Origin: a virus
Length of the DNA: 24,568 bases
Strand: one strand, 5' to 3'
Virus record (IMG/VR): IMGVR_UViG_3300024528_000149
Location: 1-24,568 of that record
A program made the position numbers and the translations under genes. A model generated the notes under the pieces. It saw nothing but the letters and a program-made list of their open reading frames with translations. It searched no databases and was not told the DNA's origin. Every line of letters begins with the position of its first letter. Position 1 is the first letter of the stretch. Shown here in pieces: positions 1-17,381 of this stretch.

Positions 1-335
1 ATACATATAACAGACTGCAGGCGCAGCACACAGACCAGAGCCAGGTCACAGACTAGCAGGATCCCGGAAGAAGTCTGGATATCTACCAGGAACAGGCCCA
101 TGATCTCGGAACCTGTGCAAATGATCCTGTAAACTTCGTGGGCTGGGCGAAAAGAAACGGCTTTTTGTATTAGTGCGGGTAGGTAGAAATAGTAGTGCAA
201 CCCATAACCCCTATATATCTAATAATAATGTGACATTAGGTAGTTATAATTAATAGTAGCAGGCAATTGTCGCACTATATACACGTAAAAACGGTAAAAA
301 CTACGTAAATATGTCTAATATAGAAAATATTTAGT
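1..335. other. Disturbed left edge without an intact gene
   Basis: No frame stays open across this stretch. By hand count the first 180 bases are about 50% G+C, while bases 181-240 are about 33%. On the + strand, frame 3 is open from 57 to the TAG at 171-173, with an in-frame TAG at 54-56 just before. Frame 2 then reads from about 125 to the TAA at 251-253, and frame 3 could resume from 252 to the TAA at 306-308. The peptide at the end of the frame-2 part (VTLGSYN) resembles VSLGDYN near the end of the fibre encoded at 621-2642. The region may therefore be a frame-disrupted C-terminus of a related fibre gene, or low-quality sequence at an assembly edge. I see no tRNA, convincing promoter or terminator here. 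Confidence 0.4.
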
Positions 336-614
336 ATGGCTAAGCAAAAATTAAGCAAATCAGCTGCTGCTGCTAAAGCTAAACGGGACCTCCGTTATGC
401 AAATTCAGCAGACCGCAAGAAAAAAAGAGCCGATAGCCAAAAAAAACGCCGCGCTGCGGCAAAGAAGCATGGTTCCAATTGGTTATCAGGTAAAGACTAT
501 GATCATAACACCGGCAAATTTGTTTCTTCCTCACACAACAGAGGTGGAACGCAATCAAGAAAGAAAAAAGACGGCACCAAAGCCGAAAAAAGACAATCTA
601 AAAAAAGAAAATAA
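336..614 (+). CDS. Small, highly basic conserved phage protein
   Basis: This 92-residue protein is very rich in Lys and Arg throughout. It has an Ala-rich, probably helical N-terminal third and a central WLSGKDYDHNTGKF segment, followed by a disordered, basic tail ending KKRK. I recognise the pattern (a basic start, then a GKDYDH motif) from uncultured marine phages, where no function is assigned. The charge suggests nucleic-acid binding or DNA condensation in the virion, but this is inference. The start has an A/T-rich leader without a Shine-Dalgarno site. The gene lies directly before the first fibre gene, six bases away. A second open frame across 397-630 is a low-complexity shadow of this gene. 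Confidence 0.8.
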   Translation: MAKQKLSKSAAAAKAKRDLRYANSADRKKKRADSQKKRRAAAKKHGSNWLSGKDYDHNTGKFVSSSHNRGGTQSRKKKDGTKAEKRQSKKRK

Positions 615-620
615 CAAACT

Positions 621-2642
621 ATGGCTATAATCTATACCTACCCACAAATAAGTGAGTTAGCTAAGGGTGATACTTTGGTTATATCTGATATCAGCAAAGG
701 TAATAAAACAAGATCTGTAACTGTTGGGGAGTTACTAGGAGGTTTGGCTACAACAGTACAGGTAAACGACAAAGTAGTAACGGATGCATCGTTTAATACT
801 AACAACGGTACATTAACGCTTACGCGTAACTCAGGTGTCATACCAAGCGTAACAGTTGATTTAGATGGTAGATATGCGTTGCCAAGTTCTTTGTACACAG
901 ATGCAGATGTAGACGCACACCTTAACAAAACTAACCAAATACCGGACGGCTATGTCCTAACTTTATCAAGTAACGATTACGCCTGGGTAGCTCAATCTGG
1001 CAGCGGCGGTGATGGTTCTGTACAAAATATAGCTACAACAGCTCCTATAACGGGTGGTCCAATAACTACAACAGGTACAATAGGTATATCACAAGCGTCC
1101 ACAAGTACGAGTGGTTATATTTCTTCTACGGATTGGAATACGTTTAACAACAAGCAAAGCACATCGGAAAAGGGTGTAGCTGATGGCTACGCTCCATTAG
1201 ATGGCAACAATAAAGTTCCGACTGTTCATTTACCAGATAGCTTAGTTGGCGCGGTTGTTTATCAAGGCACGTGGGATGCAACTAACAATAATCCTGCACT
1301 TCCAGATCCAGCTGCTGACAATAATGGACATTACTATATAGTAAGCGACGCTGGCACATATTTAGGAATAACATACGCGGTAGGCGATTGGGTTATATCT
1401 AATGGCATTGGCTGGGAAAAAGTAGATAACACGCAGGATGTTAATAGCGTGTTTGGCCGTCAAGGCAATATAACGGCGCTTGAGACTGACTACGCTGAAT
1501 TTTACGATGCCAACGTACAGAGCAATTGGAGCGAGACTGATACTAATAGTGACGCGTTTATATTAAATAAGCCAACTACTATAACGCAAGGACAAGCAGA
1601 CGAAATAGCAGCTAATACAATAAAAACATCATTTCCAGGCTTTGGAACCACAGCGGGCACAGCGCTGGAAGGAAATACAGTCATACCGGCTGCGTATACG
1701 GATGCTGATGTTGATGTGCATTTAAACACTAGTGCAGCTGGTGACGATGAAGTATTATCATGGACAGGTAGCGATTATGAGTGGGTATCTCCATCTAGCG
1801 GCAGTATTGGAGGAAGCGGTGTACCTACTCAAATGGCTATATTTGACTCTACATCAGCAATAACTTCTACACAGGCTGTAGTTGTGAATGGTTCTAGCCA
1901 AATAATAATGGATGTGTTGCGAGGCAGTGATTCTTACGCAGATGACACAGCCGCTTTGGCTGGGGGTGTTCCATATGGTGGGTTATACAGAACAGGTAGC
2001 ATTGTAAAAATAAACTTACTTGGCAATCCTCCTGCTCCAGATCCAGGACAAGTAGAGATATGTGGTCTAATTTGGACAAACACAAACTCCAGTGAAACAG
2101 AGTTAATTGCAGGTGGTAATATACCTATTTTAACTAACCAAGCTGATTGGTACAGTGCTTGGCAAGCTCAAACCCCAGCAGCTTGCTATTGGGATTTTGA
2201 TCCTAATAATGCTAGTTACGGATTAATTTATAATTATTTTACTAGCAAACTAGTAAAACCACCAGCGGGCTTTAGATTACCAACAGCTAGTGATTGGACT
2301 ACTCTAGTACAACCTCCCTGCTACACAAATACTGGAGGAAGGTTTAATAGATACGGCGCAAACCCTGGCAATTGGGATTTAACTAAGCTAACAAACACAA
2401 CTGAATTGGGGGATAGTGGTTTAAATATTCAAGGTTATGGGGACGCAATCTTAAACACAAGTACAAATTTACTTACTTTTCAAAACTTTAGAGAGTACGG
2501 AGCATTTTTCGTTGATAACCAACCTAGTTATGGAGTGGGATACGGCTTTTTTATAAATTTGTCTTCAAACAGCTTATCATCAGTCAGTCTTGGTGACTAT
2601 AATGCCCGCGCTCTATTCATAAGATTCGTTAAAGACGCATAA
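621..2642 (+). CDS. Tail fibre with C-terminal FISUMP-type domain
   Basis: This 673-residue fibre is modular. Residues 1-40 form an anchor starting MAIIYTYP that is shared with the next gene. The segment YTDADVDAHLN (about residue 92) recurs as YTDADVDVHLN (about residue 359), each time followed by a hydrophobic DYxWV strand, which indicates an internal duplication. Between them are segments common in marine phage fibres, such as STDWNTFNNKQ and GDWVISNGIGWEKVDN. Near residue 433 a DDTAALAGGVPYGGLYRTG linker introduces the tip. The tip, about residues 465-673, matches the Fibrobacter succinogenes major paralogous domain (Fib_succ_major, C-type-lectin-like): YGLIYNYF, then PPAGFRLPTASDWTTL, then a terminal LFIRFVKD. 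It is most likely the receptor-binding fibre. No cleavage or transmembrane signal is seen. Confidence 0.85.
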   Translation: MAIIYTYPQISELAKGDTLVISDISKGNKTRSVTVGELLGGLATTVQVNDKVVTDASFNTNNGTLTLTRNSGVIPSVTVDLDGRYALPSSLYTDADVDAHLNKTNQIPDGYVLTLSSNDYAWVAQSGSGGDGSVQNIATTAPITGGPITTTGTIGISQASTSTSGYISSTDWNTFNNKQSTSEKGVADGYAPLDGNNKVPTVHLPDSLVGAVVYQGTWDATNNNPALPDPAADNNGHYYIVSDAGTYLGITYAVGDWVISNGIGWEKVDNTQDVNSVFGRQGNITALETDYAEFYDANVQSNWSETDTNSDAFILNKPTTITQGQADEIAANTIKTSFPGFGTTAGTALEGNTVIPAAYTDADVDVHLNTSAAGDDEVLSWTGSDYEWVSPSSGSIGGSGVPTQMAIFDSTSAITSTQAVVVNGSSQIIMDVLRGSDSYADDTAALAGGVPYGGLYRTGSIVKINLLGNPPAPDPGQVEICGLIWTNTNSSETELIAGGNIPILTNQADWYSAWQAQTPAACYWDFDPNNASYGLIYNYFTSKLVKPPAGFRLPTASDWTTLVQPPCYTNTGGRFNRYGANPGNWDLTKLTNTTELGDSGLNIQGYGDAILNTSTNLLTFQNFREYGAFFVDNQPSYGVGYGFFINLSSNSLSSVSLGDYNARALFIRFVKDA

Positions 2643-2657
2643 ATAAAATAAAAATAT

Positions 2658-5213
2658 ATGGCAATAATTTATACATACCCCAATATAGGCACTCCTGAGG
2701 ATACAGATATAATGCTAATAAGCGATGTAAGCTTGGATAGTAACGCAACTAGAAATATTACGTTGTCAAACCTTGCACAGTTTATAAACAGCAAGGTTGA
2801 CTTGATTATTACAGGGGATGTAGGTGCAGGCTCTATAAACCTATCTACACAAGCGCTATCAGTGATAGGTACCGCAAACCAAATACAAACAGCAGCGACA
2901 AATCAAACTATACAGATTGGATTGCCAAATAATGTATCAATAACAAACAACCTAACTGTTGGGAACGTAGTACAAATAGACTCGCTTACTGGTGGGTTTT
3001 TACCTTATAATAATCAACAAGGAATACTGGCTGATTCTATAATTACTCAAGCAGCTTCAGGTCAAGGTGTGACGGTAACTGGGCAGTTAAATGTCACAGA
3101 GGATTTTTATGTAACAGGATCAACTCAGCTTGACAGCACTCTAACAGTCGAAGAAGTAGCTACATTCAACGATGAAGTAGAATGTAATAATAACGTCACA
3201 GTTCAGGGTATTTTCTCAGCGGATGGTAATTCCGTGTTTAGTGGTGAAGTAACTATTAATGAGCAATTAATTGATGGAGATGGCAGCACTGGAACAGCGG
3301 GTCAAGTACTAAGCTCAACCGGCACGCAAACTGAGTGGATCGATGTTAGCGGTGGCGGCAGTAGCGGAACTGGTACAACTAATACTTTGCCAATATGGAC
3401 AGATGGGCCAGGGGGTGTATTGGGTGATTCTCAAATAATACAAACCAAAATAGACGGGGGCACTATATTTGATTTAAATGCAGTAACGACCACTACTTAT
3501 ACTCCGGCTATTAATACAAAGCTATTAGATTTAAACTCTGGCGGCAATCAAAAGTTTTCTATAACCCAAGACGGCGGAGGTGGAGTCGTGTTGCCTTCAG
3601 GTGATATATTAAACAGTGGCCCATCATTTAATATGGGTGGCAATGCTTTTGCTAATGGTGAAAATGCACTGTCGGTAGGAGCGTCTACCACAGCTTTCGG
3701 TAATGGATCGCTTGCGGCTAACTTTTTAACACTAGCATCAGGTGGGGGTGCATCGGCGTTTGGCTTATTAACTGAAGCATCAGCATTGGCATCCGCAGCG
3801 TTTGGCAACAAGTCAATTGCTTCTGGTAATTACAGTGTTGCATCCGGGCAAGATTCAATTGCATCAGGACAATCATCAGTGGCTATTGGTGAAAAAGGTG
3901 ACGCTCGAGGTAAAAATACTTTTGTTTCTGGGTTTGGCGGCAAAGCGGTAGGAAACAACGCGGTTAAGTTTGGATATGATGGAAGTGCTGACGGAAACAA
4001 CTCAGCTGCATTTGGTTTTGAATCTATAGCTTCTGGTAACAATTCATTTGCATCCGGCTGGCAAACGGTTGCCTCTGGTTTATATTCATTTACAGCAGGT
4101 GATGGCAACATAGCTTCTGGAGAAAGAACAGCTGCTTTCGGTGTTGACAATAATGTTTCAGGTAAAGGAAGTTTTGCTATTGGTGCTAGAAACATAGTGC
4201 CTTCTCTGAATTGCCTCGTAGGAGGTACAGATAATACGTTAGTTGGCGGCAGCGTGGGTGTGGACGGGGCTCTAACTTCTTTTGTTTTTGGATATCAAAA
4301 TACAGTAGAAGGACAATACAGCACTGTATTAGGAACTAATAATGATACAGGCGAATCAACCAGCATTAATCGTAGTGACCGTATTACCCTAATAGGGCAT
4401 TCTAACCTTGTCGCGAATGGTGATTCGTCTACGTTAATTGGTAGTGGGAACCAGAACTACGGCGGGAGTGCTACCTATATTGTTGGGAAGGACAACGTAA
4501 CCACTTTGGCCGGTGGTAATTCTATTTTTGGTCGTAGTAATGATATGAGTAATTGTACAAGCTCTGCAATAATTGGAGCCAACAATGAAATGCGGGGGAG
4601 TACAGCCACGCCTAATATTACTTTAGTTGGTGTTGGGCTAAAGTTTGACGCAACCGGGCCGAATAACGAATACGGAAGAGCTACATATGTTGGTTACTAT
4701 AATGATGAACTAGATACTTTTGCTCAGTTTCAAATAGGTAATGGAACTAGCACAAGTAGAAAAAATGCTTTAAGTATAAATAAAGAAAGTGAGATTAAAA
4801 TATCTCAATACGGATCTGGCGCAGTAACCGGAACTGCAACTTGGAATTTAGCTGTTGCAGCTGATGGTAAAATAATTGAAACGGCAGACACAACACCCCC
4901 TTACTTAAGTTTTGTATGCTTACTTAGTCAAGCAGGCGGGGCAAATCCACAACCTAATATAGTATTAGAAAACTCTTTAGGTGTTGCAACTCCGTTTAGC
5001 GCTTTTACAAGGGTAGCTGGTGGAGAATATAACTTAAACGCTCCAGGTAAATTTAAACTATTAAAAACAATTGTATTTTTAAATGGCGGATCGGCTGAGA
5101 ATAATCATGATGTTGCATGGGAAGTTGTTGACACTGACAACTTAAAAATACTTACACACAACAGCGATGGCAAGCTTACAAAAGCCTCATTAGAAATAAG
5201 AACTTATAATTAA
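2658..5213 (+). CDS. Tail fibre/adhesin with YadA-like head repeats
   Basis: This 851-residue fibre begins with the same anchor as its upstream neighbour (MAIIYTYP, then an ISDVS-type strand and a TRNIT motif). Residues about 40-330 are beta-rich, with phage-fibre phrases such as GTAGQVLSSTGTQTEW. From about residue 335 to 650 there are many short repeats of the type SxAxGxxSxASGxx (for example NNSFASGW, GSFAIGAR, SSVAIGE). These are the hallmark of the YadA/Hep_Hag left-handed beta-roll of trimeric autotransporter adhesins, and they imply a trimeric stalk or head. The last 100 residues or so form a distinct beta-rich cap. No YadA membrane anchor is present, as expected for a virion fibre. 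The two fibre genes are 15 bases apart and are probably co-translated. Confidence 0.85.
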   Translation: MAIIYTYPNIGTPEDTDIMLISDVSLDSNATRNITLSNLAQFINSKVDLIITGDVGAGSINLSTQALSVIGTANQIQTAATNQTIQIGLPNNVSITNNLTVGNVVQIDSLTGGFLPYNNQQGILADSIITQAASGQGVTVTGQLNVTEDFYVTGSTQLDSTLTVEEVATFNDEVECNNNVTVQGIFSADGNSVFSGEVTINEQLIDGDGSTGTAGQVLSSTGTQTEWIDVSGGGSSGTGTTNTLPIWTDGPGGVLGDSQIIQTKIDGGTIFDLNAVTTTTYTPAINTKLLDLNSGGNQKFSITQDGGGGVVLPSGDILNSGPSFNMGGNAFANGENALSVGASTTAFGNGSLAANFLTLASGGGASAFGLLTEASALASAAFGNKSIASGNYSVASGQDSIASGQSSVAIGEKGDARGKNTFVSGFGGKAVGNNAVKFGYDGSADGNNSAAFGFESIASGNNSFASGWQTVASGLYSFTAGDGNIASGERTAAFGVDNNVSGKGSFAIGARNIVPSLNCLVGGTDNTLVGGSVGVDGALTSFVFGYQNTVEGQYSTVLGTNNDTGESTSINRSDRITLIGHSNLVANGDSSTLIGSGNQNYGGSATYIVGKDNVTTLAGGNSIFGRSNDMSNCTSSAIIGANNEMRGSTATPNITLVGVGLKFDATGPNNEYGRATYVGYYNDELDTFAQFQIGNGTSTSRKNALSINKESEIKISQYGSGAVTGTATWNLAVAADGKIIETADTTPPYLSFVCLLSQAGGANPQPNIVLENSLGVATPFSAFTRVAGGEYNLNAPGKFKLLKTIVFLNGGSAENNHDVAWEVVDTDNLKILTHNSDGKLTKASLEIRTYN

Positions 5214-5221
5214 AAACAAAT

Positions 5222-5542
5222 ATGGCTACTTGGACAATTTTATCAATGGAATATGAAAACAACGCTAGCGAGGACAAGCTAGTGGTAATATCTGCAGCGC
5301 AAGGGCAAGACGGTGTTGGCTATTCTAGAAAAGTATTTACTAATAATTTATCTGGTGTGGTGGGGCCTGCTCCACTTACACCTTATGATCAACTAACAGA
5401 ATCTCAAGTTATAGGCCTAGTTCAAGCTGACTTAGGCTCCACTGTAGTAACAGACGCAGAAACTTATGTAGATGCGCAAGCTACTATTAAAAAAGAACAG
5501 ATAGAAGATGTGCCAACAAACGCAGGACTTCCTTGGAGTTAA
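5222..5542 (+). CDS. Small conserved phage protein next to fibre genes
   Basis: This 106-residue protein opens with a beta strand (MATWTILSMEY) and ends with GLPWS. The central segment LTPYDQLTESQVIGLVQADLG is followed by an Ala/Gln-rich helix. This plan (an MxWTI start, a PYxxLTExQVxGWV-type helix and a PW terminus) matches a family of small phage proteins usually coded near tail fibres (DUF7936-like, from memory). Its role is unknown; a fibre or baseplate accessory protein is the best guess. It starts eight bases after the fibre stop, in an A-rich leader. Confidence 0.75.
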   Translation: MATWTILSMEYENNASEDKLVVISAAQGQDGVGYSRKVFTNNLSGVVGPAPLTPYDQLTESQVIGLVQADLGSTVVTDAETYVDAQATIKKEQIEDVPTNAGLPWS

Positions 5543-5628
5543 GTAAAAACCGCTAAAACCAGGTAATAGATATAATATACCCTGCTCGGGTTAGAGCAAC
5601 CAAATAAACTAATATAAAACCAAAACCA

Positions 5629-5910
5629 ATGACACTATTTTATTCGACTAGTACGTGGAGTAGTCAACCACAAGTATCCGATGAGACTGAGGCTTTATGG
5701 AAAGAAGCAACTCAAAAAACTAATTGGCGTATCGTACAATTGCCAAATGGTTATTATCAAACCGAGTTTAACAAAAATAACGAATGGATTGATGTAACAA
5801 GGCGCGAAACAATTGAAGGAGCAGAACAGGCAATTGATGCTTCTATTGAGCATTACAACAAAAAGCTAGGATTTTTAAAAGGCCCAAAAGTAGTAAAAAC
5901 TTTTGAATAG
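5629..5910 (+). CDS. Conserved marine phage protein, function unknown
   Basis: This 93-residue soluble protein has a central beta hairpin (WRIVQLPNGYYQTEF), then an EWIDVTRRETIEGAEQAID segment, a helix, and a C-terminal KGPKVVKTFE. I recognise this layout from many uncultured marine phage genomes, where it is unannotated. It has no signal peptide, membrane segment or catalytic motif. It follows an 86-base gap containing only a weak 5-bp hairpin (5583-5598), and it precedes groEL. Translation of the gene is well supported; a function is not. Confidence 0.75.
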   Translation: MTLFYSTSTWSSQPQVSDETEALWKEATQKTNWRIVQLPNGYYQTEFNKNNEWIDVTRRETIEGAEQAIDASIEHYNKKLGFLKGPKVVKTFE

Positions 5911-5941
5911 CACTTATAATCAAATTAAATTAAATTAAATT

Positions 5942-7498
5942 ATGACTGACAAAATTGTCAAAAATCTTAACTTTGGCGACGAAGCTAAAAATAAGGTATT
6001 TAAAGGAATAGAAAAACTCACAAAAGCTGTTAGCTCCACTCTAGGGGCTAGCGGCAAATGTGTGATACTTGAAGATAATACAGGAAGACCCGTTATAACA
6101 AAAGACGGAGTAACTGTAGCGAATACAATAACACTGTTAGATCCGGTTGAAAACATAGGTGCTACACTTATAAAACAAGCGGCTCAAAGAACGGTCAGCG
6201 AGGCAGGCGACGGAACCACCACAGCAACGGTGTTGGCGCATGCAATTTTAAAAGAGGCATATAAAGCGCTAAAGTCGCATGGAACTCGCGAAATTAAAGA
6301 AGGTATAACCCTAGCGGTTGAAAAGGTATGTGCGGCATTAGAAAAAACAGCCATACCTGTAACCGGCGAAATGTTAAACCAAGTTGCAACAATCTCAGCA
6401 AACAACGATGCTGAGCTAGGCAACCTAATTGCTGATGCTTTTAAAGCTGTCGATAACACGGGTGTTGTTATAATGGAAACTTCAAATGAAACCGTAACAA
6501 GCACAGAAGTAGTTGACGGAGTTCAATACGAAAAAGGATTAAAGAATTTTCATTTTGTAACAAATAAAGAAACTGGCGTTTCTGAGCTAGACAACCCTTT
6601 AGTTTTAATCGTTGAATCAGAAGTTCCTAATATAAGGAAAATTCAAAGCGTATTAGAATACGTTATTAAAAATAAAAGAAGTCTTCTTATAATTGCAGAT
6701 GTTGGGCTTGAGGTACTAAACGCTCTTGCCATGAATCACGTTAAAGGTAATATAAAAGTAAATGTTATTGACGCTCCTACTTACGGGGTAACCAAAAAAG
6801 AAGTGATGCAGGATATAGCGCTGTTAACAGGCGCAACTGTGATAAATGAAAACTTGGGGGATGACATGGATTTAATACAGCCTGAACATTTGGGAGAATG
6901 CTTAAAATCCGTAACAAACAATGAAGAAACGATTTTGCAAATTAGTGAACCCAGTGAAGAAGTTGAAAAACTGGTGGAGCAGGTTAAAAAACAACTTAGC
7001 GAAGCTACGCTCGCGGGTTATAAAATTCAATTTGAAAAAAGACTTGCTCGTCTCTCCGCTAAAGTGGCTATTGTCAAAGTTGGAGCAAACTCAGAAGTAG
7101 AGTTAAAGGAAAAAACAGATAGAGTAGAAGATGCTATTTGTGCTACAAAAGCCGCAATAAAAGAGGGCATAGTTTCAGGCGGAGGCATAGCTTTGCTGAA
7201 TGCGTCGGTTCTTACAAAAGCTAAAAGCGAAGGTGAGAAAGTATTGTTAAAGGCAATTAAAGCGCCCTATGAAACAATTCTTGCAAACGCAGGTCTTGAG
7301 ATAGTTTACCCCCAAACAAAAAACAAAGGGTTAAACGTGGTTACAGGAAAAGAAGTAAATATGGTACGAGCAGGGATTATCGATCCGCTACTAGTAACTA
7401 AAAGCGCTCTTAAAAATGCGGCTTCAGTAGCTACAACAATAATTTCAACTGATTGTGTAATCAATAACTTAAGAGTAGGAGATGAAAGCAATAGGTAG
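5942..7498 (+). CDS. groEL: Phage-encoded chaperonin GroEL (Cpn60)
   Basis: This 518-residue protein matches GroEL from end to end. It folds proteins in an ATP-driven double-ring chamber together with GroES. The ATPase motifs are intact: TKDG with Asp55, GDGTTTATVLA with Asp90, and RVEDA with Asp397, equivalent to the three key Asp of the E. coli protein. The SGGG motif (412-415) and the Asn465 and Asp481 positions that contact nucleotide are also kept. Differences include TLGASG at 33-38 in place of the usual TLGPKG, a diverged apical domain, and no Gly-Gly-Met tail, so it is about 30 residues shorter than the E. coli protein. It overlaps groES by 17 bases. The likely clients are capsid or fibre proteins of this phage, which is inference. 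The leader is a tandem AAATT-type A/T run without a Shine-Dalgarno site. Confidence 0.97.
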   Translation: MTDKIVKNLNFGDEAKNKVFKGIEKLTKAVSSTLGASGKCVILEDNTGRPVITKDGVTVANTITLLDPVENIGATLIKQAAQRTVSEAGDGTTTATVLAHAILKEAYKALKSHGTREIKEGITLAVEKVCAALEKTAIPVTGEMLNQVATISANNDAELGNLIADAFKAVDNTGVVIMETSNETVTSTEVVDGVQYEKGLKNFHFVTNKETGVSELDNPLVLIVESEVPNIRKIQSVLEYVIKNKRSLLIIADVGLEVLNALAMNHVKGNIKVNVIDAPTYGVTKKEVMQDIALLTGATVINENLGDDMDLIQPEHLGECLKSVTNNEETILQISEPSEEVEKLVEQVKKQLSEATLAGYKIQFEKRLARLSAKVAIVKVGANSEVELKEKTDRVEDAICATKAAIKEGIVSGGGIALLNASVLTKAKSEGEKVLLKAIKAPYETILANAGLEIVYPQTKNKGLNVVTGKEVNMVRAGIIDPLLVTKSALKNAASVATTIISTDCVINNLRVGDESNR

Positions 7499-7742
7499 AA
7501 ATTTAATAGTATTAAAAGAAAAGCAAGGTGCAAAAGAAACAAAAGGCGGCTTACTTTTAGCGGAAAAGCAAAGAGAAGATATTAGGTACGCGAAAGCAAA
7601 AGTAATATCAGCTGGTGAAGATGTACAAGCTATAAAAAATAATGATATTATATATTACGACCGCCACGCGGGCCACAAAATAGAATTTGAAGGTAATATG
7701 TATAATGTTATAAAATCGCAGGATGTAGTAATAGTTGTATGA
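7482..7742 (+). CDS. groES: Phage-encoded co-chaperonin GroES (Cpn10)
   Basis: This 86-residue protein is close to the short end of the Cpn10 size range. It starts MKAIGRNLIVL (first strand) and has a mobile loop at about residues 15-31 with the hydrophobic tripeptide LLL at 24-26, the position of IVL in E. coli GroES, which docks on the GroEL apical domain. It then shows the Cpn10 pattern of AKVISAGED, a NNDIIYYDRHAG turn, IEFEGNMYNVIKSQDVVIV and a hydrophobic terminus. It is read from within the end of groEL (17-base overlap) and overlaps the next gene by four bases (ATGA). Coupled synthesis with groEL is therefore likely. The gene order is the reverse of the usual bacterial groES-groEL. 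Confidence 0.95.
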   Translation: MKAIGRNLIVLKEKQGAKETKGGLLLAEKQREDIRYAKAKVISAGEDVQAIKNNDIIYYDRHAGHKIEFEGNMYNVIKSQDVVIVV

Positions 7743-8161
7743 GGCATTTAGAGGCATCTGATTTGCGTTCTTTAAATATTCTAAAGCATTACCGCGTAAT
7801 TAGAAAATGGACCGCTAAAACACACGGTTTGCAAGAAGCGGATCTAGAGCTTTTAATATATTTTGACTGCTTAGACCATTTTACTAAAAACGATTATAAA
7901 ACCGGAGTGCTTGCATACAGTTGGGATAATAAAAGATGGAATAGGCTTTTGAAAGAAGACTGGATAAGTGTATGGCGCAAAAGAAATCATACAACACAAA
8001 AGTATCATATATATAAAACTTCATTTAAATGTAGGCAGATGATTACGCGTATGTATAAAATGCTTTTAAACGAAGAAGAAGTACCATTAATAAAAAATCC
8101 TAAAACGTATTCAGATCGAGCTTTGGGATTAGCTATAAAAAAAATAAACTATGGCAAATGA
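7739..8161 (+). CDS. Putative winged-helix DNA-binding phage protein
   Basis: This 140-residue basic protein has a helical N-terminus (DLRSLNILKHYRVIRKWTAK), a helix ADLELLIYFDCLDHF, a recognition-like stretch around WDNKRWNRLLKEDWISVWRKR, and a YHIYKTSFKCRQMI beta/helix element. The order resembles a MarR-type winged helix. I infer DNA binding, perhaps as a late-gene regulator or packaging factor, from this pattern only. It overlaps groES by four bases and the next gene by eleven bases, so it sits in one translational chain. The weaker alternative is a structural protein of unknown fold. Confidence 0.6.
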   Translation: MRHLEASDLRSLNILKHYRVIRKWTAKTHGLQEADLELLIYFDCLDHFTKNDYKTGVLAYSWDNKRWNRLLKEDWISVWRKRNHTTQKYHIYKTSFKCRQMITRMYKMLLNEEEVPLIKNPKTYSDRALGLAIKKINYGK

Positions 8162-8405
8162 CATGTTTAATATCCCTAGCATAAAAGCTAAGTCTATAAA
8201 TGTACCAATGGTAGATGTTTCCAGAATTGGGCAAACCGGTGACTGGGCAGGCGTCAATCAAAGAATAGAATTAGGCCTTACTTCCCTTGCTAAGGCCAAA
8301 GATCAAATAAAAGTTGGAGAAGGGCAAGATGATACTAATCTTCAAAGGCGTATAAACAAAGCTAAAGCGCAAGGTAATGAAGCTAAGAAAGCTAGACTAG
8401 AATGA
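8151..8405 (+). CDS. N-terminal part of an ORF interrupted by TGA
   Basis: This 84-residue product begins MANDMFNIPSIKAKSINVPM and turns into a basic, helical stretch (LQRRINKAKAQGNEAKKARLE). It stops at TGA 8403-8405, but the same frame stays open for another 91 codons to the TAA at 8679-8681. The continuation has the same Lys/Gln/Ala-rich helical character. The full product would be about 176 residues, probably a virion protein given its neighbours. Possible causes are a nonsense mutation, a sequencing error, or programmed TGA readthrough. TGA is a normal stop elsewhere in this window (groES and the GroES-fold-like gene), so a general code change is excluded. Confidence 0.6.
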   Translation: MANDMFNIPSIKAKSINVPMVDVSRIGQTGDWAGVNQRIELGLTSLAKAKDQIKVGEGQDDTNLQRRINKAKAQGNEAKKARLE

Positions 8406-10054: not shown

Positions 10055-10363
10055 ATGGCTTTTAAAATGAACAGTGCGCCTTACGAGGTGGATAATACCC
10101 CTATATATAATGTAAGTATGGAGGATGGGGTTCTTGGAAAAGCAAATAATAATGGTACAATAATAATTGATGAGAACTTAAGCGCTGCACAAATGCAAGG
10201 CGTGGTTGATCATGAAAAAGTTCACATTGATCAAATGAAAAGAGGTGATCTAAATTACGACGATAAATACGTTTACTGGAAAGGTAAAAAATATTTAAGA
10301 TCGGAAATGCAGGAAGGAAATAAAAAATTGCCTTGGGAGGCAGAAGCATATAGAAACGCATAA
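10055..10363 (+). CDS. Small HExxH metallopeptidase-like protein
   Basis: This 102-residue protein has a metal-site motif, HEKVH, at residues 53-57, and a downstream PWEAEAYRN in which Glu97 could be the third zinc ligand. This gives the minimal gluzincin-like arrangement. The N-terminal half is beta-rich (MAFKMNSAPYEVDNTPIYNV, then GTIIIDENL). I recognise this size and pattern from marine phages. No signal peptide is present, so it would act in the infected cell or in the virion. Activity is not proven by the motif; a structural remnant of a peptidase fold is possible. It starts one base after the TAG of the miniprotein gene. Confidence 0.75.
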   Translation: MAFKMNSAPYEVDNTPIYNVSMEDGVLGKANNNGTIIIDENLSAAQMQGVVDHEKVHIDQMKRGDLNYDDKYVYWKGKKYLRSEMQEGNKKLPWEAEAYRNA

Positions 10364-11816: not shown

Positions 11817-12725
11817 ATGGCCTTTAAACTTGGTAACCCAACAGATCCGCCTTCTGGCAGTAATAATGCTACCGCTGAGGAGTTGCGTCAAAAACGTATG
11901 GACGCAAGTAAAGCATTAGAAGCTGAGCGCAAAAGAGTTACTGATATCCGACTTAGAATAGATCAAGTAGCGGAAAGTGCGGCCGGCGGAAGCTACACTG
12001 TAGACTATGGTATGAATGACGGGAGAGCTGGAGTAAAAGGAGCCGGGGTTGTTCCACAAAAAACATTTGAGTGGCTACAAGGCATGGGTGGAGCAGGTTG
12101 CTCAACTTACGCTTGCGGCATAATGCGAGAAGCAGGCGTCACAGTACCTAATTCAGTTGGAGAAGAAGGGGTTACTATAAATGATGTTACATATAAGCCC
12201 GGTGATAAAATGCCAATTATACCAGGAAATGAGCAATTTGACGCAGTGGCACCTCAGCTTGGCTTTGAACTAAGAGCTCCCGGCAGTTTACCTGAAGAAG
12301 GCGACGTTACGAGAGTGGGTTATGGCTACGGTTACACCTCCCATTCCACAATACAAACAGGGGAAGGGCGAAATGTTTATAACCCAGGAACGCCATCATT
12401 AGGTTTAAAAGAATCAGACCATTATGCTGAGCCCTCAGAATTTGAAGGTCTGTCCGTAGAGGAAACGGAAGCATTTGTAAACGACTCAGACTTCAGCTTG
12501 AGTGGCGGGCCAGTAGTCAGTGAAGATAAAAAATTATACCCTACCAGATTAATGCAATACGTCGGGGATTTACCAGCGCTGCGAAAAAAATATAGAGAGG
12601 CTGCGCAAGCCGCAGGACCGGAAAAAGCAATTGAGCTAAAAGCAAAACCTGCTACGTTAGGTTCCATGACACCAACAGCACAGTTACCAACTAATATGTT
12701 AAAGTTTTTTAATAGAAATAAATAA
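11817..12725 (+). CDS. NlpC/P60- or CHAP-like Cys-His protein, putative lysin
   Basis: This 302-residue protein has a helical, charged N-terminus (about residues 20-50). A Cys-His core follows: GCSTYACGIMREAGV with Cys95 as the likely nucleophile (Cys100 follows), then PEEGDVTRVGYGYGYTSHSTI with His176. The order matches papain-fold peptidoglycan hydrolases of the NlpC/P60 or CHAP type (Cys at a helix start, GD strand, then His). It has no signal peptide, so it would be released by the downstream holin or carried in the virion. The C-terminal 70 residues are helical. The family assignment rests on motif order, and the third catalytic residue is not identified. Confidence 0.6.
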   Translation: MAFKLGNPTDPPSGSNNATAEELRQKRMDASKALEAERKRVTDIRLRIDQVAESAAGGSYTVDYGMNDGRAGVKGAGVVPQKTFEWLQGMGGAGCSTYACGIMREAGVTVPNSVGEEGVTINDVTYKPGDKMPIIPGNEQFDAVAPQLGFELRAPGSLPEEGDVTRVGYGYGYTSHSTIQTGEGRNVYNPGTPSLGLKESDHYAEPSEFEGLSVEETEAFVNDSDFSLSGGPVVSEDKKLYPTRLMQYVGDLPALRKKYREAAQAAGPEKAIELKAKPATLGSMTPTAQLPTNMLKFFNRNK

Positions 12726-12739
12726 TTTAATTTAATAAA

Positions 12740-13471
12740 ATGAAAAAGCTAATTTTTATTTTAGCTTTTCTTTTTTTGGGCGTTACTAATGCTCAAGACA
12801 AACTTTCTATATCTAATTATTTTAAAATACCAGAAAGTTATAAAAGAATAGCTATAACAGATTACCACAAGTGGTTAATAAATAAGCAAATAAAAATTGA
12901 AGAAGTAAAAACTTACGACGGATATACTATATACGGATTAGGAGATTATTACGCGGCAAAGTTTGATTATAAAATTGGAAAAAGAGATTTACATCAATGC
13001 GCTGACGCCGCAATGTATTTTAGAGCGTGGTATCATTTTGACAAAGGTAATATAAGTAAAATAATATTTACGTTTACAGATGGTACGCGGTATAGCTACA
13101 GCAATTTTTTAAAGCAAAAACAGCTTAGCAATACGTTTAATAGCTTCAATAAATATATGGCCATTATATGGTCTTACGCGGGTACGTGGTCAATAAACAA
13201 ATATGATACAAATGAAGTAAGCGTCAGCAACATATCCGCGGGTGATATATTTGTTGTAGGAGGATTTCCAGGCCATGCAATAACCATCGTAGATGTAGTT
13301 GAAAATGAATGTGGTGATAAAAAAATAATGTTGTCACAAAGTTTTATGCCAGCACAAGATCATCATATATTATTAAACCCAAAAAGTAATACTGTTTGGT
13401 TTGATATAAACGAGGTGCACAATACGGGATTTGGCTTCACTGAAGACAATTTAAAAAGATTTAAAATATAA
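12740..13471 (+). CDS. Secreted DUF4846-family protein
   Basis: This 243-residue protein has a signal peptide (residues 1-18, MKKLIFILAFLFLGVTNA) and then the DUF4846 pattern: HQCADAAMYFRAWY with Cys87, WSYAGTWSI, GDIFVVGGFPGHAITIVDVV with His179, and LSQSFMPAQDHHILLNP. The Cys followed by GD...PGHA resembles NlpC/P60-like and CHAP peptidases, so an envelope or peptidoglycan-related cysteine hydrolase is plausible, but the Pfam name only says unknown function. It sits between the Cys-His protein and the holin, and its stop overlaps the holin start (TAATG). It is most likely part of the lysis set. Confidence 0.85.
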   Translation: MKKLIFILAFLFLGVTNAQDKLSISNYFKIPESYKRIAITDYHKWLINKQIKIEEVKTYDGYTIYGLGDYYAAKFDYKIGKRDLHQCADAAMYFRAWYHFDKGNISKIIFTFTDGTRYSYSNFLKQKQLSNTFNSFNKYMAIIWSYAGTWSINKYDTNEVSVSNISAGDIFVVGGFPGHAITIVDVVENECGDKKIMLSQSFMPAQDHHILLNPKSNTVWFDINEVHNTGFGFTEDNLKRFKI

Positions 13472-13875
13472 TGAAAAAGATTTGGCAATGGCTTACCGGC
13501 TCCGTTATAAAAGAGGTAGGGGTTGTTTTAGATAACCTTACAACTACTAAAGAAGAAAAGCTAGAAGCTCAAAGGTTAATAACTGAAATATTAGAAAAAG
13601 CTGACAAGGAAGCTCAAGAGCAAGTTACAGCTAGGTGGGAAGCAGACATGACATCTGATTCTTTTTTATCAAAGAACATTCGTCCACTTGTTTTAATATA
13701 TTTAACATTTATATTTTCAATATTAGCGTTTTTTGACGGTAACATTGGCGAATTTAAAATAGCAGAAGAGTACATTCCTATATTCCAAACTCTTCTTGTT
13801 ACAGTGTATGGAGCTTACTTTGTAGGTAGGTCTTGGGAAAAAGCTAAAAGTATGAGTAATAATAAAGATCAATAA
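13471..13875 (+). CDS. Holin, 3TM-type family
   Basis: This 134-residue protein has a helical, charged first half (a KLEAQRLITEILEKADKEAQEQ helix and an ARWEADMTSD segment), then NIRPLVLIYLTFIFSILAF (membrane segment, about residues 71-89) and IPIFQTLLVTVYGAYFVGR (about 102-120), with a short basic tail. The ARWEADxxSDSxLxxNIRPLVLxxL pattern and the GxxFxGRSxEK end match the phage holin family often called 3TM holins (GTA-type holin). It would form the inner-membrane lesion that lets cytoplasmic lysins out. It is translationally coupled to the DUF4846 gene. Confidence 0.85.
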   Translation: MKKIWQWLTGSVIKEVGVVLDNLTTTKEEKLEAQRLITEILEKADKEAQEQVTARWEADMTSDSFLSKNIRPLVLIYLTFIFSILAFFDGNIGEFKIAEEYIPIFQTLLVTVYGAYFVGRSWEKAKSMSNNKDQ

Positions 13876-14129: not shown

Positions 14130-14349
14130 TAACGTAAGAAAAATCAGTATAGGCTCTGACTACAAAAACGATGCGATGCACTATTCCGTAGGGCAACAGG
14201 TTTATGGGGGCCATGAAATATCAAATATATTATTTGACGAAACTGATCATTCTTACAATATATTCATTAAAAAAAACAACGAGGTGTTGCCATGGAAAAA
14301 GTTTAATAAAAACATGGCAATATCTGTTGAGTATGACTTAGAGTATTAA
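14122..14349 (+). CDS. Small conserved phage protein
   Basis: This 75-residue protein looks beta-rich: RKISIGSDYKNDAMHYSVGQ, then GGHEISNILFDETDHSYNIFI and PWKKFNKNMAISVEYDLEY. It ends in an acidic, aromatic tail. I recall the same start and end pattern in marine phage genomes next to packaging genes, without a known function. It overlaps the upstream stop by eight bases and the next start by one base (TAATG), so it is probably expressed in a chain with its neighbours. Confidence 0.7.
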   Translation: MNNNVRKISIGSDYKNDAMHYSVGQQVYGGHEISNILFDETDHSYNIFIKKNNEVLPWKKFNKNMAISVEYDLEY

Positions 14350-14954
14350 TGAAAAGCCTGCACCAATTTATTGTTAAACCCGCTAATAAGCGCTATAATA
14401 ATGAAAAGAAAATAGGCGACAGTAGCCTCTTACTAAATAATAATATAGAAAGCTTTCGTCACGTTAGCAAAGAAGCAATTGTAGTTGAGATACCAAAAGC
14501 TTTTAAAACAAATATAAAACCCGGCGATAAAGTTATAATTCATCATAACATATTTAGAAGATTTTATGATATAAGAGGAAAAGAAAAAAATAGTGGCACC
14601 TACTTTAAAGATGATTTATATTTTGTTAATATAGATCAAATTTACATGTATAATCAAAATAATAAATGGCTACCTCATTTAGATTATTGTTTTGTTAGCC
14701 CTATTAAAGAAGATGCTATGTTTTCAATTAATTTTGAGAAGCCCCTAGTTGGTATATTAAAATATGGAAACAACGCGTTAGAAGCGCTTAAAATAAACCC
14801 AGGAGACTTAGTTGGCTTTACGCCGTACAGTGAGTTTGAGTTTATAATAGAAAACAAGCGTTTATATTGTATGAAATCAAATGACATTGTAATTAAGTAT
14901 GAGTGTAAAGGAAACGAAGAAGAATATAATCCAAGCTGGGCGAAAAGCAGTTGA
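14349..14954 (+). CDS. Two-domain GroES-fold-like protein
   Basis: This 201-residue protein contains two Cpn10-like elements. The first, about residues 43-100, has IKPGDKVIIHHNIFRRFYDIRG and then YFKDDLYFVNIDQIYMY. The second, about 132-188, has GILKYGNNALEALKINPGDLVGF and then FEFIIENKRLYCMKSNDIVIKYE, which closely resembles the GroES C-terminal pattern of PGD, strand, IDNEEVLIMSESDILAI. Both PGD turns (58-60 and 151-153) fit the fold. No hydrophobic mobile loop is obvious. It may act as an alternative or phage T4 gp31-like co-chaperonin, or only share the fold. It precedes the terminase genes, and its end overlaps the next gene by 56 bases. Confidence 0.6.
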   Translation: MKSLHQFIVKPANKRYNNEKKIGDSSLLLNNNIESFRHVSKEAIVVEIPKAFKTNIKPGDKVIIHHNIFRRFYDIRGKEKNSGTYFKDDLYFVNIDQIYMYNQNNKWLPHLDYCFVSPIKEDAMFSINFEKPLVGILKYGNNALEALKINPGDLVGFTPYSEFEFIIENKRLYCMKSNDIVIKYECKGNEEEYNPSWAKSS

Positions 14955-15171
14955 GGAACTAATTAAAGTAGCTAAAGAAGCTATTGTTGATTCAGACGAT
15001 GATATATCAGCTGACAGGCTTAAGAACGCAGCTGCTACAAAAAAGCTAGCTATATTTGATGCCTTTGAAATACTTAATAGAATTGAAGAGGAACAAGCAT
15101 TGCTTGATGGCGCTAATAAAGAAACGCGAGCAAAATCTTTTAAGGGTTTTGCGGAAGGTAGATCTAAGTAA
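14899..15171 (+). CDS. Putative small terminase subunit
   Basis: This 90-residue helical protein starts MSVKETKKNIIQAGRKAVEELI. It continues with DSDDDISADRLKNAAATKKLAIFDAFEILNRI and ends KSFKGFAEGRSK. Its position directly before the large terminase (TAATG overlap), its size and its helix-rich sequence suit a small terminase subunit that recognises DNA. I also recall the DISADRLKNAAATKxxAIFD pattern from marine phages at this place. No helix-turn-helix is certain, so the role rests mainly on position. Its first 56 bases lie inside the upstream gene in another frame. The ATG at 14899 is the earliest I can support. Confidence 0.6.
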   Translation: MSVKETKKNIIQAGRKAVEELIKVAKEAIVDSDDDISADRLKNAAATKKLAIFDAFEILNRIEEEQALLDGANKETRAKSFKGFAEGRSK

Positions 15172-17381
15172 TGTACGAGCAAAGTTTATATAAAATTTTA
15201 CCGGACTATATTAAGCCGAGCGTAATTAAAAAAAATAACCGTTATAAAAAATGGCAGTATGGCTATAACAAGGAATATGATGTTGTAGTTATAAGTAAGA
15301 CTGGGCAAATAGGGGAAGTATACGAAATACAAAATTTAAAGATTGCTTTACCAAAAGAAGATAACGTTTACGCTTCTAAAAAAGATAAATGGGAAAAGCT
15401 TGAGTACCCAAAAGAGCTCAGCAAAATAAAAAGCGTATTCGAGTGGAACACTAAGCCCGAGTATTTTAAAGACAAATACTATGATTACATCGATCAAGAA
15501 TTTAATCGCAGATCGCAGGGGTTTTGGTTCTATAATAAGAGTGTGGCTACTTACGTTACTGGTACTCACTATATGTACTTGCAGCACTCCAAAATTGATG
15601 TTGGGGCAGCAGAGTTTAGGGAGTCAAACAGATTATTCTTTATATTCTGGGAAGCTTGCAAAGCCGACCCACGATCTTATGGAATGTGTTATCTTAAAAA
15701 CCGTCGTTCAGGATTCTCGTTTATGTCTTCAGCAGAAACCGTTAACCTGGCAACAATTACATCGGATGCACGGTACGGTATCTTGTCAAAGTCTGGTGCG
15801 GATGCTAAAAAAATGTTCACAGACAAAGTTGTACCAATATCAGTCCACTACCCGTTCTTTTTCAAACCAATCCAGGACGGGATGGACAGACCAAAAACAG
15901 AGCTCGCCTACAGAATACCAGCATCAAAACTTACTAGACGTAAACTTGATAGTGGCGAAAACCCCGAAGAGCTTGAAGGATTAGATACTACTATAGATTG
16001 GAAAAATACAGGAGATAACAGTTATGATGGAGAAAAATTAAAACTGTTAGTGCATGATGAATCAGGTAAATGGGAAAGGCCAGATAATATACTAAACAAC
16101 TGGAGGGTTACTAAAACCTGTTTAAGGCTAGGAGCTAGAATAGTAGGCAAGTGTATGATGGGGTCAACAAGCAACTCACTAGATAAAGGTGGTGCGAATT
16201 TTAAAAAATTATACAATGCCTCAGACGTCACAAAAAGAAACCGCAACGGACAGACTAGCTCGGGATTATATAGTTTGTTCATACCTATGGAATGGAACTA
16301 CGAAGGATTCATTGATTCTTATGGCCTACCTGTATTCGATACGCCCGAAAAAGAGATTGAAGGACCTCATGGGGATATAATAGATCAAGGAGTAATACAA
16401 CATTGGCAAAATGAAGTTGATGGCTTAAAAGACGACCAAGACGGTTTAAATGAATACTATAGGCAATTTCCTAGAACGGAGCAACACGCTTTTCGAGATG
16501 AAGCCAAAGAGTCTTTGTTTAATTTAACTAAAATATATCAACAAGTAGATTATAACGAAGATTTAAGAAATACAAGCATAGTAACACAAGGAAGCTTTTA
16601 TTGGGAAAACGGTGTTAAAGATACGAAAGTAATGTTTGCACCAAATAAAGATGGTAGGTTTTTAATATCTTGGATACCAAATAAAAACCAACAAAACCGT
16701 GTAATATTAAAGAACGGTATTAAATACCCAGGCAATGAGCACATGGGGGCGTTTGGTTGTGATAGCTATGATATATCGGGAACAACTGACGGTAAAGGAT
16801 CGAAAGGTGCGCTTCACGGTTTAACAAAGTTTAGTATGGAAGATGCTCCGGCTAATTCTTTTTTCTTAGAATATATATCAAGACCCCAGACGGCGGATAT
16901 ATTTTTTGAGGACGTATTGATGGCTTGCATATTTTATGGCATGCCTATATTAGCAGAAAACAATAAGCCTAGATTGCTTTACTATTTTAAAAGAAGAGGA
17001 TACAGGGGTTTTTCAATGAATCGTCCTGATAAGCTTTTAAATAAACTTTCAGTTACAGAAAGAGAAATAGGTGGTATGCCTAACTCGAGTGAAGATATTA
17101 AACAAGCGCACGCGGCTGCTATCGAATCCTATATAGAAGATTACGTTGGTTTAATGAAAGATGGATCTTACGGAACAATGTATTTTCAAAAAACCCTGGA
17201 AGATTGGGGTAAATTTAATATAAACAATAGGACTAAGTTTGATGCTTCTATTAGCTCAGGCTTAGCTATAATGGCTTGTAACAAAAACAAATATAGCCCA
17301 AGGGCTGAAAGAATATTAACATCACATACTTTAAGTTTTAAAAAGTACAATAATAAAGGACATAGTTCAAAAATAATATAA
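15171..17381 (+). CDS. terL: Large terminase subunit (TerL)
   Basis: This 736-residue packaging motor subunit has an N-terminal ATPase. Its modified Walker A is LKNRRSGFSFMSSAE (about residues 175-188), its Walker B is LKLLVHDESGKW with Asp296-Glu297, and its coupling motif is CMMGSTSN (about 328-335). A linker with RQFPRTEQHAFRDEA (about 431-445) is followed by an RNase-H-like nuclease with FGCDSYD (Asp531 and Asp534) and a later EDVLMACIFYGMPILAENNKP element (580-600). The protein moves DNA into the prohead and cuts it at the end of packaging. It follows the putative small subunit and is directly followed by the portal, as in most tailed phages. All key motifs are intact. Confidence 0.95.
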   Translation: MYEQSLYKILPDYIKPSVIKKNNRYKKWQYGYNKEYDVVVISKTGQIGEVYEIQNLKIALPKEDNVYASKKDKWEKLEYPKELSKIKSVFEWNTKPEYFKDKYYDYIDQEFNRRSQGFWFYNKSVATYVTGTHYMYLQHSKIDVGAAEFRESNRLFFIFWEACKADPRSYGMCYLKNRRSGFSFMSSAETVNLATITSDARYGILSKSGADAKKMFTDKVVPISVHYPFFFKPIQDGMDRPKTELAYRIPASKLTRRKLDSGENPEELEGLDTTIDWKNTGDNSYDGEKLKLLVHDESGKWERPDNILNNWRVTKTCLRLGARIVGKCMMGSTSNSLDKGGANFKKLYNASDVTKRNRNGQTSSGLYSLFIPMEWNYEGFIDSYGLPVFDTPEKEIEGPHGDIIDQGVIQHWQNEVDGLKDDQDGLNEYYRQFPRTEQHAFRDEAKESLFNLTKIYQQVDYNEDLRNTSIVTQGSFYWENGVKDTKVMFAPNKDGRFLISWIPNKNQQNRVILKNGIKYPGNEHMGAFGCDSYDISGTTDGKGSKGALHGLTKFSMEDAPANSFFLEYISRPQTADIFFEDVLMACIFYGMPILAENNKPRLLYYFKRRGYRGFSMNRPDKLLNKLSVTEREIGGMPNSSEDIKQAHAAAIESYIEDYVGLMKDGSYGTMYFQKTLEDWGKFNINNRTKFDASISSGLAIMACNKNKYSPRAERILTSHTLSFKKYNNKGHSSKII

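Follow-up and report, generated by a model that had tools for sequence, protein, structure and literature searches.

The 24,568-base viral record analyzed here, referred to throughout as the window, carries three chaperonin genes on its plus strand: a divergent groEL, an overlapping groES, and, near the terminase gene, a gene for a second co-chaperonin that is predicted to consist of two GroES domains and is named dGroES here. On balance, we favor a reading in which the three products make up a three-part group I chaperonin, with a lid supplied wholly or partly by the tandem protein, that folds late phage proteins. A phage groEL–groES pair alone is already known, whereas for a tandem phage GroES, its constant partnership with a single-domain GroES, and the loss of ring contacts in GroEL, no description was found in the literature that we searched.

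A Divergent GroEL with Shortened Ring-Contact Segments

The groEL gene (positions 5942–7498; the other chaperonin features, orf140, and the terminase gene described below are likewise on the plus strand) encodes a protein of 518 residues that matches Pfam PF00118 (Cpn60_TCP1; E = 1.7e-54, above the gathering score) and the groEL family PHROG 5725 (E = 1.7e-131). Its AF2 model (pLDDT 80.6) has the Cpn60 fold, and Foldseek matched this model to GroEL structures with E values reaching 7e-44. The protein passes two broader NCBIfam GroEL subfamily cut-offs and misses that of the equivalog TIGR02348 (457.7 vs 582.1 bits), and judged from its sequence it is a divergent member of the group I chaperonins. 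An earlier note, made from the DNA letters alone, had described this GroEL as complete with all three catalytic Asp residues, and the open reading frame call and our alignment bear this out. Specifically, D55 (6104–6106), D90 (6209–6211), and D397 (7130–7132) correspond to E. coli D52, D87, and D398, ATPase residues that are kept in all 73 GroELs of the lineage. The same note had pointed to TLGASG in place of the bacterial TLGPKG at the nucleotide site (residues 33–38; 6038–6055) and to the missing Gly-Gly-Met tail; both are correct, and both are traits of the lineage rather than peculiarities of the window contig. In the alignment, P33 is replaced by Ala in 72 of 73 lineage members and is Pro in 79 of 79 bacterial GroELs, and TLGASG is also found in the GroELs of phages Panino and phi40:1.

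With respect to ring assembly, part of the equatorial domain (approximately 7195–7353) contains two shortened segments. The segment corresponding to E. coli residues 425–440 comprises 9–11 residues in every one of the 73 lineage GroELs, as compared with 15–17 in the 79 bacterial proteins. The segment corresponding to residues 455–475 comprises 15–16 residues in 69 of 73, as compared with 21–22 in the bacteria, the exact placement of this second deletion being ambiguous in the alignment. Ring–ring contacts of E. coli GroEL (E434 and E461–V464) lie in these two segments, and the single-ring mutant SR1 is changed at R452, E461, S463, and V464; R452 is present in just two of the 73 lineage GroELs when these are aligned with the 79 bacterial sequences. 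Because the segments holding the E. coli ring–ring contacts are shortened, the phage GroEL is predicted to be a single or weakly paired ring. Changes are also seen in the apical domain, where His replaces Y203 in 72 of 73 lineage GroELs and Gln replaces L234 in all 73. In E. coli GroEL, these residues belong to the surface contacted by substrate and by the GroES loop, and their replacement in the lineage leads us to predict that the lid site of the phage protein has been re-tuned.

An Overlapping groES Gene

The groES gene (7482–7742) encodes an 86-residue, single-domain co-chaperonin, which is supported by Pfam PF00166 (Cpn10; E = 2.9e-11, 43.7 bits against a gathering score of 21.1), by placement in the PHROG GroES family, and by an hhalign match to bacterial GroES (98%, E = 9e-13). 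As first described, the protein is complete and has a hydrophobic tripeptide in its mobile loop (LLL, residues 24–26, within KGGLLLAE; 7551–7559), and the gene order groEL–groES is the reverse of the bacterial order, with 17 bases shared by the two genes (7482–7498). These shared bases encode the GroEL tail DESNR. The length of the overlap varies among relatives, being 17 bp in 39 of them, 20 bp in six, 4 bp in one (L012), and 1 bp (TAATG) in three (L045–L047) as well as in Flavobacterium phage elemo, while in Podoviridae sp. ctfjg026 (hereafter the Manatee Spring phage) the two genes do not overlap and lie 4 bp apart. From this variation, we infer that groEL likely lost its stop codon and was thereby extended by the overprinted tail GDESNR, read at the start of groES; this tail replaces the GGM tail in position only. 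The overlap also makes translational coupling of groEL and groES likely. Relative to E. coli GroEL–GroES, the phage pair thus shares the fold and the ATPase residues, and differs in its gene order, its lack of a GGM tail, its shortened ring-contact segments, and its changed apical residues.

The gene that follows, orf140 (7739–8161; PHROG 17028), is joined to groES by an ATGA coupling and neighbors it throughout the lineage. In the Manatee Spring phage and in elemo, groES has a related gene as its opposite-strand neighbor, which in the former bears the label 'repressor protein'; inspection by eye suggests that orf140 is possibly a winged-helix regulator. Immediately upstream of groEL in most relatives is orf93 (5629–5910 in the window), a small protein with no Pfam match.

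A Tandem Co-chaperonin Near the Terminase Gene

The gene for dGroES (14349–14954), which the earlier note had overlooked, encodes a Cpn20-like protein of 201 residues, twice the length of GroES. PHROG 13932, named 'co-chaperonin GroES', matches it across nearly its full length (E = 5.1e-25). By sequence, the C-terminal half (14667–14909) is a GroES domain, with an hhalign match to bacterial GroES of 95.6% (E = 1.3e-8) and a Pfam Cpn10 match (5.5e-4) slightly below the gathering score. The N-terminal half (14349–14666) gives a weak hhalign match to GroES (27%), and it is the predicted structure that points to its GroES nature. The AF2 model, built from 18 lineage sequences, has a pLDDT of 78.7 and is of low confidence at residues 21–40, which correspond to a flexible loop with an LLL-type hydrophobic tripeptide (LLL in the window; 14427–14435) followed by an invariant Asn. 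When this model was compared with the PDB using Foldseek, the sole match below 1e-3 was chain R of 7ekq (E = 6.9e-5, full length, TM 0.54/0.55), which is named as a Cpn20 co-chaperonin subunit in an entry that also contains Chaperonin 11 and Chaperonin 23. Single GroES chains ranked next, with query TM values of only ~0.3. Among named viral predicted structures, the best match was 'Chaperonin cpn10' of Cellulophaga phage phi18:3 (a BFVD model), again over the full length. At the level of the predicted fold, dGroES therefore appears to be two GroES domains arranged head to tail. Searches of solved structures with dGroES profiles returned no significant GroES match, and comparison of the N and C halves by hhalign, shuffled local alignments, and a column-profile test gave no repeat signal indicative of internal duplication. 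A 304-residue viral protein, BFVD entry A0A516L046, has a model that aligns with that of dGroES at a TM of 0.77 (query length) and may be a longer co-chaperonin fusion.

The closest likeness is to the Cpn20 of chloroplasts and apicoplasts, which also has two head-to-tail GroES domains and a separate single-domain partner. The phage protein differs in that a close sequence relation to Cpn20 is absent and in the loop of its C-terminal domain, which is short and has no hydrophobic tripeptide, whereas Cpn20 has a mobile loop in both domains; for this reason we liken dGroES to Cpn20 without classing it as such. The duplication in this phage gene is probably independent of that in Cpn20, or else very old.

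At its 3′ end, the dGroES gene overlaps orf90 by 56 bases (14899–14954). This small gene, perhaps encoding the small terminase subunit, is the only one between dGroES and the terminase large subunit (15171–17381; PHROG 6681, E = 2.2e-159). The dGroES tail EEEYNPSWA is conserved but not shared by elemo, phi38:1, or the Manatee Spring phage, and in view of this absence its conservation may stem from the overlapping gene.

Conservation, Gene Order, and Selection

Viral contigs were scanned both with the GroEL protein, which gave 51 loci at 61–97% identity, and with an alignment of the tandem co-chaperonin, which gave at least ~600 stretches, 80 of which were kept. In these loci, which were picked by the same genes so that counts of presence are biased and counts of position are not, groES directly follows groEL wherever both occur (75/75), the dGroES gene precedes the terminase gene in 123 of 123, and a single fixed order is seen in all 69 loci of the window lineage that contain groEL, groES, and the tandem gene. 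Comparison of the window with four relatives gave dN/dS values of 0.05–0.07 for groEL, 0.02–0.10 for groES (outside the overlap, with one comparison saturated), and 0.07–0.15 for the tandem gene (overlaps excluded), and all three genes are under purifying selection. More than 100 independent viral contigs link the chaperonin genes to those for terminase, portal, and virion components, and this linkage and the selection together support their being real phage genes. The suggestion in the earlier note that phages with both partners are uncommon does not hold in this niche, where an abundant lineage of marine flavophages carries the pair as a fixed trait.

Origin of the Chaperonin Genes and Probable Host

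A search of the genomes of 84,980 bacterial and archaeal species found no GroEL more than 43% identical to that of the window, with the exception of one match at 55%. The latter lies on L137 (DQLC01000067.1, positions 1–8332), a phage contig of the window lineage inside an alphaproteobacterial genome assembly, where its neighbors run orf93-groEL-groES-orf140-orf102 as in the window; its placement there is likely a binning error. A tree built from 60 GroELs unites the window lineage and L137 in one clade (SH-aLRT 100) outside every host genus, and no near-identical host sequence was found. This clade joins other flavophage GroELs outside all sampled bacteria, a deep branching that is poorly supported (SH-aLRT 84, long branches) and calls for caution. 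With the pair adjacent in every locus that has both genes, dN/dS at 0.02–0.10, and bacterial identities no higher than 43%, host contamination is excluded, as is a chimera by these identities, the phage nature of L137, and the GroEL tree. Among solved structures, the window GroEL is matched best in sequence by an ancestral Bacteroidetes-group chaperonin obtained by reconstruction, which fits a derivation from the host phylum long ago. A recent arrival of the genes from a host, by whatever route, is exceedingly improbable given the distance to bacterial GroELs, the single clade, and synteny on over 100 viral contigs. The terminase has its relatives in phages of Flavobacterium, Cellulophaga, Tenacibaculum, and Maribacter, and the host is therefore probably a member of the Flavobacteriia.

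Related Flavophages

Four divergent flavophage groups, with terminases 37–63% identical to that of the window, also have a GroEL, a single GroES, and a tandem GroES. These are represented by elemo, the Manatee Spring phage, Panino, and Callevirus, the last of these trios being pieced together from phi40:1 (GroEL and Cpn10) and phi38:1 (tandem protein). The surroundings of groEL vary among the groups and the tandem gene stays beside the terminase gene; the single GroES is kept in every examined related group that has the tandem gene. Callevirus (Pervagoviridae; phi38:1 and phi40:1) resembles the window in its GroEL with TLGASG, its single Cpn10, and its GroES of ~190 residues before the terminase. 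In contrast to the window, its Cpn10 gene precedes groEL with a gene between them, and its GroEL is ~38% identical with just one of the two ring-contact segments shortened. In elemo (Elemovirus) and the Manatee Spring phage, groEL is followed by groES and the tandem gene lies by the terminase gene as in the window, but groEL is 36–38% identical and the 17-base overlap is reduced or absent. The elemo pair is furthermore on the strand opposite the terminase gene. The Manatee Spring phage retains both ring-contact segments at their usual length, whereas elemo retains one of the two. Work by Marine et al. in 2017 on virioplankton chaperonins is said to have found that gene order follows GroEL phylogeny.

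The earlier note had taken the location of the pair right behind the fibre genes as a sign that it folds virion proteins. This location is not conserved in phi40:1, where groEL lies among exonuclease genes, or in elemo, and comparison of elemo, Panino, and phi40:1 led us to drop it as a clue to clients; the folding of virion proteins is still plausible. Earlier studies have reported that 36 marine genomes belonging to the phi38:1 group of Bacteroidetes phages encode GroEL homologues (PMC5332604, 2017), have noted GroEL and GroES of the Maribacter phage Panino (PMC11590407, 2024), and have detected the phi38:1 GroEL protein in infected cells and free virions (PMC13288928). A 'chaperonin cpn10' is also listed among shared Pervagoviridae genes, and the listing makes no comment on two domains (PMC8776804). 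Phage proteins labelled 'cpn10' can conceal a different architecture.

A Proposed Three-Part Chaperonin

Building from these genes, we infer the oligomeric state, assembly, lid composition, and clients of the system as follows. GroEL, with its intact ATPase residues, would bind unfolded late phage proteins, probably as one ring or as two weakly associated ones. Single-domain GroES would be produced through translational coupling from its overlapping gene, and the tandem protein would be produced along with the terminase and head genes. Hydrophobic mobile loops would then let a lid close the GroEL chamber, with the tandem protein forming all or part of this lid. Perhaps three tandem subunits and one single-domain GroES would combine to give seven domains, as with Cpn20/23 and Cpn11 in chloroplasts. 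Chloroplast Cpn20/23 and Cpn10 have indeed been described as forming hetero-oligomers of seven GroES domains (PMC5780408), and a review calls the tandem co-chaperonin unique to chloroplasts, with mixing with single-domain subunits as an answer to the problem of seven-fold symmetry. Head proteins are our first guess for the clients, since the tandem gene is linked to terminase, portal, and capsid genes. The full version of this proposal, in which a lid of three tandem proteins and one GroES evolved separately from that of chloroplasts and closes a naturally single-ring GroEL to fold head proteins, is put forward only tentatively, and we would sooner expect some part of it to differ. No more than four of the seven domains in such a mixed lid would bear loops, since the C-terminal domain of dGroES is without a normal mobile loop. 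Moreover, groES and dGroES are separated by ~6.6 kb and may differ in the timing of their expression, and dGroES could instead work with the GroEL of the host.

In terms of alternative roles for dGroES, the GroEL–GroES pair may be self-sufficient, with dGroES acting late as a lid similar to T4 gp31 that forms a dome of its own on phage or host GroEL and gives the major capsid protein a larger chamber. The constant company of terminase, portal, and capsid genes is consistent with this idea, as is the role of gp31, another phage-coded co-chaperonin, as a known replacement for GroES in capsid folding. A loop confined to the N-terminal domain would also be expected if the N-terminal domains alone touched GroEL and the C-terminal domains made up an upper tier. 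However, gp31 is a single-domain protein that uses the host GroEL, whereas the window encodes a tandem protein and a GroEL of its own, and gp31 is a poor Foldseek match to dGroES (E = 0.9). The best fold match, Cpn20, aligns with both domains together at a TM of 0.54, which favors a side-by-side arrangement in one ring, and the retention of a single GroES in every examined related group with the tandem gene also counts against a separate dome. We consider this reading possible but unlikely. Less likely still is that dGroES is a GroES-fold protein recruited to DNA packaging or head assembly with no co-chaperonin function. Its fixed place just upstream of the terminase gene and the weak sequence relation of its N-terminal half to GroES would be accounted for in this way, but the C-terminal half is a clear GroES domain, the N-terminal half keeps a conserved hydrophobic flexible loop, and in five phage groups dGroES is found together with both GroEL and a single GroES. 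The identity of 7ekq, a chloroplast ClpP complex with Cpn11, Cpn20, and Cpn23, raises the further idea that dGroES caps the host ClpP protease and modulates proteolysis as the chloroplast Cpn11/20/23 cap does. The presence of GroEL and GroES in every examined related group speaks instead for chaperonin work, and we regard a ClpP cap as very improbable.

The three-part chaperonin that we favor also differs from the chaperonins of phages EL, OBP, and AR9. These are phage-coded GroEL homologues as well, and some are single-ring (OBP and AR9), but they function without a co-chaperonin, whereas the window has two GroES-type genes; those of EL and AR9 are only ~26–27% identical to the window GroEL over part of the protein. 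If an abundant group of marine phages has a set of one single-domain and one two-domain lid protein, it would add an independent example beside chloroplasts, in a genetically simple system suited to asking what a chaperonin gains from two lids. The proposal is testable in relatives that have been isolated on laboratory hosts, such as phi38:1 on Cellulophaga baltica and elemo on Flavobacterium.

Other Features of the Window

No tRNA genes were found in the window. Near its start, a fibre-like protein (621–2642) ends in a Bacteroidetes-type Fib_succ_major domain (E = 7.2e-10), and its neighbor (2658–5213) contains YadA head repeats. Downstream of the chaperonin pair, orf102 (10055–10363), which is present in most relatives, has the sequence HEKVH (HExxH) and a weak match to a putative metallopeptidase family. 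A probable lysis group (11817–13875) consists of orf302, a DUF4846 protein (E = 4.5e-49), and a holin, and the Cys motif CSTYACG of orf302 could be that of an NlpC/P60-like enzyme.
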